DNA from: a virus
DNA: 41,956 bases
IMG/VR virus record: IMGVR_UViG_3300030109_000599
Location: 1-41,956 of that record
Strand: one strand, 5' to 3'
The position numbers and the translations under genes were made by a program. The notes under the pieces were generated by a model. That model ran no database searches and was not told the DNA's origin. It saw only the letters and a program-made list of their open reading frames with translations. Positions 24,162 to 25,681 of the stretch are shown here, one piece after another (position 1 is the stretch's first letter; every line of letters starts with the position of its first letter).

Positions 24162-24343
24162 TAGTCCACCATCCAGCTGTATTTTCCAGCCATTGGTAAG
24201 AGCTCATGATTATCTAAGGCCCTTAATATTAGTACACGCTGTAAACGTGTGTATGATATGTCATTTTTGACCATTTCCGCTACTTGTTCAAACTTATATT
24301 CGTCTTCCTGAGTAACGTTGTTATTAGATTGAAATAATCTCAT
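24161..24343 (-). CDS. Early hypothetical protein (60 aa)
   Basis: A small soluble, probably helical protein (MRLFQSNNNVTQEDEYKFEQ then VAEMVKNDISYTRLQRVLIL). I recognise no family. The start is backed by AAAGAGGATATT before ATG, nearly identical to the leader of the preceding early gene, and hammerhead B ends 24 nt upstream. It is coupled to the following membrane protein by TAATG. Confidence 0.62.
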   Translation of the reverse strand: MRLFQSNNNVTQEDEYKFEQVAEMVKNDISYTRLQRVLILRALDNHELLPMAGKYSWMVD

Positions 24344-24840: not shown

Positions 24841-24890
24841 GTGTTTCGTTTGGCATCTCATCAGGTCTAGGTTGCCATACCTAGCGACAC
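24841..24890 (-). ncRNA. Hammerhead ribozyme A with loop-loop kissing pairing
   Basis: Read on the minus strand from 24890. Stem III is GTGT/ACAC. The cleavage triplet is GTC, with the cut predicted between 24886 and 24885. Stem I is G plus CTAGGT/ACCTAG plus C with one bulged A, and loop ATGGCA. The core is CTGATGA, then a minimal stem II (one G-C pair) with loop ATGCCAAA, then GAAA. TGGCA of loop I is perfectly complementary to TGCCA of loop II, a five-pair kissing contact that could replace the missing stem II. It ends 15 nt before the first early gene. Confidence 0.85.
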
Positions 24891-25253
24891 GCGGCCCCTT
24901 CTCTCTAACGTCCGTCAGTCCGCCAGTGTTACGTTGTCAATTACCTCGCGTGCCACTTGCCTAGCTGTGGTCATCCACACGCCGCGAGATTTCATAAAAA
25001 TGATATGACGTCTATTCACTGAGTTTCGTTCTTACCGCTTTGAGTCTCATTGAGCCGCAATAGGTGCAAGTCATTGCTACTTGCTAGGTCCTATCCCCAT
25101 TGGACGTCCGTTTGTTGTCCTTCTGGTTCACGAGCTATCGCACTCTTTCCCAGTCACCGAGTGCCCCGTCCGTACCTCTGGCGGCTTACTTTTCATTCAG
25201 CCCGTTGGTCTTCCGCTTCGTTTGTCTAATGATTTCACAAACTAGGTGACATA
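24891..25253 (-). ncRNA. Structured, GC-rich early leader RNA
   Basis: This stretch has no gene over 40 codons and lies between the host promoter and hammerhead A. It is much richer in G/C than its surroundings: 33 of 60 bases in 24901-24960. Perfect stems include GCACTC/GAGTGC (25140-25164), GCAAGT/ACTTGC (25066-25084), and CTCGCG/CGCGAG (24945-24988) enclosing TGTGG-ATGA-CCACA. Cleavage by hammerhead A would free an RNA of about 365 nt. A run of tiny frames also tiles it (25238 to 24915), so coding of micropeptides cannot be ruled out. Confidence 0.6.
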
Positions 25254-25259
25254 CCCTGT

Positions 25260-25287
25260 ATTCTACAGATATTTGACATGGTGTCAA
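25260..25287 (-). promoter_or_regulatory. Host sigma70-type early promoter with operator-like dyad
   Basis: The minus strand has TTGACA at 25287-25282, a 16-base spacer and TAGAAT at 25265-25260. The predicted start is near 25253. It is the best host-type promoter seen in the window and faces the early genes. An AT-rich stretch upstream (25288-25320) could be an UP element. The -35 box is half of a perfect dyad TTGACA-CCA-TGTCAA (25273-25287), which resembles a repressor operator. Confidence 0.82.
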
Positions 25288-25324
25288 TTCCTAAAATGAA
25301 AAATAATTAAATTAATTACAAATC

Positions 25325-25398
25325 TAAAAAAATAGGCCTAAGCACAAAGACACGCCGAAGTATTTTCTGGGACCTTTGGTCTCTCTTTGGGTGCCTAT
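25325..25398 (-). terminator. Structured terminator upstream of the early promoter
   Basis: On the minus strand ATAGGC (25398-25393) pairs with GCCTAT (25337-25332). Inside it CAAAGA pairs with TCTTTG and GACC with GGTC. A run of seven T follows the outer stem (25331-25325 plus flanking). It would stop late transcripts coming from the terminase and lysis genes before they enter the early promoter. Confidence 0.65.
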
Positions 25399-25513
25399 AG
25401 CTAACAGCCGGACAGCTTCCGGTTACCTTATGCGTCCACGCCGGCCCACACCCGACGGCTGGCTACGGGGGAATTTAAGGTCCCGACATATACGATTACC
25501 CTTTCAGATTTTT
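25399..25513. other. GC-rich non-coding stretch near the expected genome ends
   Basis: No gene was found. The minus strand contains a small hairpin CCGGA-AGCTG-TCCGG and GC-rich segments between 25400 and 25490. In T7-like phages the concatemer junction, packaging signals and terminal repeats lie between the last late gene and the early promoters. This region is the best candidate here, but no repeat within the window proves it. Confidence 0.35.
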
Positions 25514-25681
25514 CTACCAAATGTAAGCCAAAGTTGCCAAAGTACCTAACAGCACAAATAACAATATATAAAGCTCTATAATAGAGACTTGTGGGGATAG
25601 ATAAAAAGTCCTCAATATCTTGGATTGACTTAATAAATACATACCCCCAGCAACAACAAAAAGTATAATTGCATTCTCCAT
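25514..25681 (-). CDS. Small two-helix membrane protein, holin candidate (55 aa)
   Basis: An uninterrupted 55-codon frame, ATG at 25681 and TAG at 25514. It encodes two hydrophobic helices: MENAIILFVVAGGMYLLSQS at the N-terminus and a second at about residues 34-55 (IIELYILLFVLLGTLATLAY). Between them lies a short polar, basic turn (SKILRT). Size and two-helix topology match class II holins such as T7 gp17.5 (67 aa). It follows the putative endolysin and one small gene at the end of the late block. The ribosome site is weak (AAAGAATT), which lowers confidence. Confidence 0.5.
   Translation of the reverse strand: MENAIILFVVAGGMYLLSQSKILRTFYLSPQVSIIELYILLFVLLGTLATLAYIW

Follow-up and report, generated by a model that had tools for sequence, protein, structure and literature searches.

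Results of our analysis indicate that a 368 nt region on the minus strand of the studied virus genome encodes a structured non-coding RNA, the predicted first product of the early operon, the structure of which is evident from covariation among its relatives. The region extends from position 25253 to 24886 of the window, i.e., of the whole 41,956 nt stretch analysed (IMG/VR record IMGVR_UViG_3300030109_000599). Most probably, it is a functional RNA that is separated from the mRNA behind it by a hammerhead ribozyme.

The genome map is circularly closed (~42 kb, with ends that overlap by at least ~85 bases), its minus strand holds the large predicted genes, and its RNA polymerase (RNAP; 21897-19459, minus strand) shares 74% identity with the enzyme of Pelagibacter phage HTVC109P. 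The source of this DNA is a T7-like pelagiphage. Pelagiphages rank among the Earth's most abundant viruses, and SAR11 bacteria are among the commonest marine bacteria. Along the minus strand, which defines "downstream" here, the early operon comprises, from ~25254 on, the leader RNA, gene 1 (24825-24493), the genes at 24343, 24161, 23788 and so forth, and then the RNAP gene. The 110 aa product of gene 1 is phrog_5643-like, has no function assigned, and no counterpart of the gene was found in our phage collection; gene 1 is preceded by the ribosome-binding site (RBS) AAAGAGG located directly behind the first hammerhead (hammerhead A). The open reading frame 24861-24493 begins within this hammerhead, and its true start is probably 24825.

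The start of host transcription proposed in the earlier note (about 25253) agrees with a near-consensus match to a host sigma-70-type early promoter, TTGACA-16-TAGAAT (25287-25260, minus strand), which would place the start near 25254. Within the window, the only minus-strand match to TTGACA/TATAAT of at least 11/12 begins at 25287, and TTGACA is kept at the same place in the related loci L168, L094, L097, L102, L103, L173, L101, and L203. The -35 box of this promoter is overlapped by a perfect palindrome, TTGACACCATGTCAA (25273-25287), which is partly kept in relatives as TTGACATGATGT and is a possible operator. Just upstream of the promoter, at ~25320-25350 (minus strand), there is a T-run, GGCCTATTTTTTTAG (GGTCTATTTTTATT in relatives), possibly a late terminator.

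Two properties ascribed previously to the region between promoter and hammerhead, the lack of a normal gene over ~365 nt and a G/C content higher than elsewhere, are confirmed by our data. The longest open reading frame in the leader has 34 codons, and its GC content is 0.505 vs. 0.368 for the window, a value reached by only 0.7% of 368 nt windows. These G/C content and perfect stems, which had been taken as evidence of structure, do not prove it, because the 368 nt RNA folds no better than its dinucleotide-shuffled copies (z = -0.48). Additionally, the minimum-energy fold of the leader is partly contradicted by its closest relative, L168 (GCCGCCAG/CUGGCGG). The notion of a structured RNA is strongly supported by compensatory changes and conserved modules in relatives, among which covarying helices, the suggested check of this notion, are present.

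The first ~83 nt of the leader differ strongly between the window and L168, with the first hairpin still paired, and the next 289 nt contain eight substitutions, six of which combine into three exact compensatory pairs (142/156, 167/199, and 242/333 in the alignment). When eight transitions are placed at random, at least three such pairs arise in 0.6% of trials. The window's leader family, designated here as family Z, comprises only eight distinct sequences. In the five-sequence alignment of its 5' domain, ten pairs exhibit double changes vs. 4.2 +/- 1.3 in shuffled alignments (0/500), the covariation score is 0.373 vs. 0.151 in shuffles, and 88% of cells are paired, while every slid version of the alignment stays below 46%.

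The leader consists of two domains with different distribution among phages. Domain D1 (5' module; 25258-25051, minus strand) is common to L168, L103, L173, and L102, and matches covariance model R2 with 210 bits, the window being one of the model's own sequences. Domain D2 (3' module; 25051-24906, minus strand) is common to L168, L094, L097, L179, and L204, as indicated by nhmmer and alignment. According to nhmmer results, L103, L173, and L102 have the first ~200 nt (D1) in common with the window and differ from it in the 3' part, L094, L097, L179, and L204 have the last ~150 nt (D2) in common with it and differ in the 5' part, and the 5' part of L097 matches L089. The sharing of D1 and D2 with different sets of phages indicates that the leader RNA is a mosaic, and that its modules are exchanged between phages.

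All helices described below lie on the minus strand. The first stem of D1, Pa (25241-25237/25225-25221; UUUGU/ACAAA), has all cells paired and three pairs with double changes, being replaced by CUAGA/UCUAG in L168, CUGGA/UCCAG in L103, and CUAGC/GCUAG in L173 and L102. It is followed by Pb (25202-25199/25186-25183; GGCU/AGCC), in the case of which GCCU/AGGC and GUCU/AGAU were read by eye in relatives, and the count returned by the tool is low because the MAFFT alignment is shifted there by one column. The loop of Pc (25164-25159/25145-25140; GCACUC/GAGUGC) can pair with CCAG downstream, forming a candidate pseudoknot. Helix Pe (25120-25117/25105-25102) changes from GGAC/GUCC to GGGC/GCCC in L168, and the helices Pf (25094-25090/25064-25060) and Pf2 (25084-25079/25071-25066) were assigned based on covariation. 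Domain D2 is closed by a long-range helix, Pg (25021-25017/24928-24924; CAGUG/CACUG), which reads CAGCG/CGCUG in L168, as well as CUGA/UCAG in L094 and UCGG/CCGA in L204 (the latter two by eye), and contains Ph (25003-25000/24995-24992; assigned by alignment) and Pi (24988-24983/24950-24945; CUCGCG/CGCGAG). The counterparts of Pi are CCAGU/ACUGG in L094, CAGUA/UACUG in L097, and CAGCA/UGCUG in L204, with the inner pairs of L097 and L204 read by eye. Thus, Pg and Pi alter their sequence yet remain paired in four lineages. Strong conservation concerns also single-stranded motifs of the leader, such as AAGCGGUAAGAA and GGUACGGAYGGGGCACU.

Searches of Rfam 15 with the window and 15 other loci revealed hammerheads only, with no leader match at the gathering score and none significant in the E-value searches; no tRNA or tmRNA was found. 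Certain motifs of D2 are reminiscent of a group I intron, an assignment that we dropped, as it has no Rfam support. An antisense action on the phage's own mRNA was rejected as well: the longest complement is 15 nt, which is near chance, and lies inside a variable hairpin.

The conservation of the leader is not of the coding type, since substitutions hit all three codon phases and the lengths of indels are not multiples of three; the pattern that had been named as an argument against an RNA is therefore absent. Could the inverted repeats act in DNA, as a genome-end element such as a terminal repeat or a packaging or replication site? In T7-like genomes, the ends lie near the lysozyme/terminase end of the map, and the region studied here adjoins this end, near a conserved block of 30 nt at 25487-25521. 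However, it follows a conserved promoter and has its end precisely at the ribozyme, and the helices are kept with G-U and rarely with A-C pairs, which is a strand-specific signature of RNA. We consider the action in DNA very improbable. The block itself, GAAAAATCTGAAAGGGTAATCGTATATG (~30 nt, minus strand), lies behind the genes of the lysozyme end and is kept across pelagiphages, being followed by ...TTCCCCCRTAG; perhaps it is a promoter of the phage RNAP or a genome-end signal.

The leader is followed by hammerhead A (24890-24841, minus strand), which lies immediately ahead of the gene 1 RBS and is a type III ribozyme with a pseudoknot and a predicted cleavage site after 24886. Its core is intact (GUGUC^ / CUGAUGA / GAAAC) and comprises CUGANGA ... 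GAAA, A15.1-U16.1, and a cleavable H17. Stem III has 4 bp, stem I has 6-7 bp with one bulge, and stem II, of which only one G-C pair is left, is replaced by a 5-bp pseudoknot between the stem I loop UGGCA (24877-24873) and UGCCA (24855-24851). The pseudoknot partners change together (UGGUA/UACCA in L114 and UUGGU/ACCAA in L103); the RF02276 score is weak (17.6 bits vs. gathering score of 37). Pseudoknots of the stem I loop are common in hammerheads and strongly raise their activity, as stated in a study of these ribozymes (PMC3088659), and crystals of a pseudoknot hammerhead have been obtained (PMC11300833).

Three further hammerheads are located on the same strand downstream: hammerhead B (24418-24368) before the gene 24343-24161, hammerhead C (about 23864-23810; RF00008, 43.8 bits, E = 1e-7) before the gene 23788-23258, and hammerhead D (22548-22499) before the gene 22474-21962. 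In total, four hammerheads on the window's coding strand match a strict descriptor, compared with 0.03 expected from shuffles. The majority of the leaders in the compared phages are followed at once by a hammerhead with the RBS of the next gene right behind it, and hammerheads of types I, II, and III occur also before later early genes. The isolates HTVC031P and HTVC019P are among those that bear hammerheads.

The release of the leader by the ribozyme, as proposed previously, finds support at the level of sequence, in the intact core and by L168, in which the leader and the ribozyme are kept while gene 1 is replaced. In that contig, the leader and hammerhead A are highly similar to those of the window (94% identity over 906 nt, with upstream sequence counted in) and directly followed by a different gene, with a second hammerhead and the gene 1 homolog coming later. 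Hence, the leader and hammerhead A form a unit independent of the gene behind them.

The assignment of structured RNAs to this place in the early operon is not limited to family Z. In other PELAGIPHAGES (pelagiphages, cultured isolates included), we identified two other leader RNAs at the corresponding place, assigned here as families X and Y. Family X (HTVC019P/Eistla type; ~120 nt) comprises stem P1, an inner hairpin, and P2/P3 with conserved AAGGCGG and AGUAGG. It is represented by 33 loci (covariance model R1), including one locus in each of the isolates HTVC019P, HTVC109P, HTVC168P, HTVC201P, HTVC304P, HTVC131P, HTVC022P, Ran, and Eistla; the promoter assignment of X leaders is uncertain. 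In HTVC022P (MH598798), the X RNA occupies positions 387-509. In a sequence-only alignment of 13 members, all ten pairs of P2/P3 show compensatory changes, with 100% of cells paired and a covariation score of 1.06 vs. 0.32 +/- 0.05. When all members are included, compensatory changes concern 19 of 21 helical pairs, and 93% of cells are paired, although this alignment was fitted with the model and leans to its structure. G-U cells in X helices outnumber A-C cells (39 vs. 8), as expected for an RNA of this strand. An extra pseudoknot of X (GGGC/GCCC, GAGU/ACUC) is not claimed, as only 54-66% of it is paired. Neither do we claim covariation for family Y (~215 nt; HTVC031P and HTVC142P), as its sequences are too alike and the RNAalifold covariance term is not supportive.

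Families X, Y, and Z have no detectable homology to each other. The window leader has no match to covariance model R1 at E<=0.1, which places it outside family X in spite of the same location, and the D1 covariance model, used against 83 sources, recovers only the five sequences of its own training set, so we did not join the three into one family. No isolate in the phage collection carries family Z, as judged with the leader region of the window and the leaders of L103 and L097 as queries. The element is not universal, since in L014 a promoter-like site lies near gene 1, and neither a leader nor a hammerhead was found there.

In the case of HTVC022P, HTVC201P, HTVC131P, and Ran, the X leader is followed by a conserved hairpin of ~26 bp and no hammerhead; the hairpin of Eistla is longer still. 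Such hairpins in place of the first hammerhead lie in L249 (511-580), L243, L246, and L245 (~26 bp), and in L003 (~2155-2300). They may be RNase III-like sites. The occurrence of a hairpin where other phages have a ribozyme suggests a benefit of detaching the leader from the mRNA as such, and a maintenance of the leader that does not depend on the ribozyme. In T7, the early polycistronic mRNA is cut between genes by RNase III, and pelagiphages with the ~26-bp hairpin where others have a hammerhead resemble it in this respect. They differ from T7 in that the cutting would be mostly by ribozymes and the leader is long and structured.

It should be considered whether the leader is only a by-product of such processing. 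Hammerheads or RNase III-like hairpins would provide each gene of the polycistronic early mRNA with a defined 5' end by cutting ahead of it, the 5'-OH ends would be shielded from 5'-sensing decay, and the leader would only aid the folding of the ribozyme or guard the primary 5' end. Several early genes are indeed preceded by hammerheads, in the window as well as in isolates, and the presence of non-homologous leaders at one site suggests a loose requirement. Multiple hammerheads (types I, II, and III) are already known to flank phage and prophage genes, a pseudoknot of the stem I loop being present in many of them, and those flanking single genes were proposed to be devices processing long phage transcripts (PMC3088659). 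However, the hammerheads before later genes lie in short gaps with no such long structured RNA ahead, single-stranded motifs of the leader are conserved beyond the needs of a stabilising hairpin, and X leaders remain where the hammerhead is lost. We regard the by-product explanation as unlikely. As the trimming of mRNA needs no long structured RNA, and the later hammerheads lack one, the leader itself probably acts and is not just a 5' untranslated region.

The course of events that we propose for an acting leader would begin with host RNA polymerase starting near 25254 and making ~368 nt, which would fold into D1 and then D2. Hammerhead A, judging by its intactness, would cut the nascent transcript after 24886 and part the leader from the gene 1 mRNA. 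Most likely, the leader would then act at once, before any phage protein is made, by binding either the transcription machinery of the host or, in trans, some other host factor. The best-fitting precedent is the put RNA of phage HK022, which is encoded immediately after an early promoter, attaches to the host polymerase during elongation, and needs no tethering (PMC9378689). This last property makes a release by ribozyme compatible with a put-like action. The window leader is likewise located directly downstream of an early sigma-70 promoter, but it has 368 nt and about ten helices, while put has ~70 nt and two stem-loops; more generally, the leaders described here are of ~120-370 nt, have other structures, and end at a ribozyme or hairpin. 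Therefore, the leader is not a member of the put family, and is only possibly similar to it in action, which in the case of put is the suppression of termination through the zinc-binding domain of RNAP beta'. By analogy, a put-like modification of the elongating host polymerase is one tentative function of the leader, about as likely as an action in trans on some other factor of the host. The presence of three non-homologous structures at one site argues against a single specific target and would fit also a generic role in cis. More speculatively, infection by pelagiphages may begin with a non-coding RNA that is matured by a ribozyme, precedes any phage protein, and gains control of a host machine, be it the RNA polymerase or another factor, with several unrelated folds serving in this role and modules being exchanged.

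The least probable of the functions considered is that of a packaging RNA used by the terminase, which, like pRNA of phi29, would have its gene at the genome end and be transcribed early by the host polymerase. The position of the leader near the genome end, as well as the lack of a recognised small terminase subunit among ten scanned proteins of the window, including three small open reading frames beside the large subunit gene, would fit this function. However, the leader matches no Rfam family, either in sequence or in structure, and a failed search for a small subunit does not count, given how short and divergent these proteins are. To our knowledge, T7-like terminases do not use RNA. As phage-encoded structured non-coding RNAs, the leaders are comparable to phi29 pRNA and to the ornate RNAs GOLLD and ROOL (PMC12286853), from which they differ in that we found no similarity at the level of sequence or covariance models.

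The families of leader RNAs described here appear to be new. In the accessible text of Perreault et al. 2011 (PMC3088659), no conserved structured RNA is described between a promoter and the first hammerhead, whereas one is present here. A search of open-licence papers revealed nothing on hammerheads or leader RNAs in pelagiphages, and the first paper on a pelagiphage transcriptome uses neither "ribozyme" nor "noncoding" in its main text (PMC12753301). The take-over of SAR11 cells by pelagiphages is poorly understood; if our proposal is true, the first act of infection would be RNA-based, and phage hammerheads would gain a concrete job. The idea is directly testable, since leader RNAs occur at this place in the cultured isolates HTVC019P, HTVC109P, HTVC168P, HTVC031P, HTVC142P, Eistla, and HTVC022P, and strand-specific RNA-seq data for HTVC022P, spanning 1-15 h, are public (PRJNA1253180).

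A similar layout was found in Vibrio phage Phriendly (L197; MN062185.1, ~1010-1554), where a TTGACA-type promoter is followed by ~455 nt with no annotated gene, a pseudoknot hammerhead, and the first gene of the operon; thus, the strategy may extend beyond SAR11 phages. The pseudoknot hammerheads of L103, L098, L204, and L197 have the core CUGAAUGAG, with one extra nucleotide in CUGANGA, a variant common to pelagiphages and the Vibrio phage. The hammerhead of HTVC121P (L247, ~665-775) contains a very large stem II insertion (~85 nt). In HTVC109P, the annotated first coding sequence (gp01) begins inside the hammerhead core. Annotated coding sequences overlap a leader RNA or hammerhead also in the case of HTVC131P gp2, Ran gp42, and HTVC019P 743-934, and at least some of them are probably spurious or have wrong starts.
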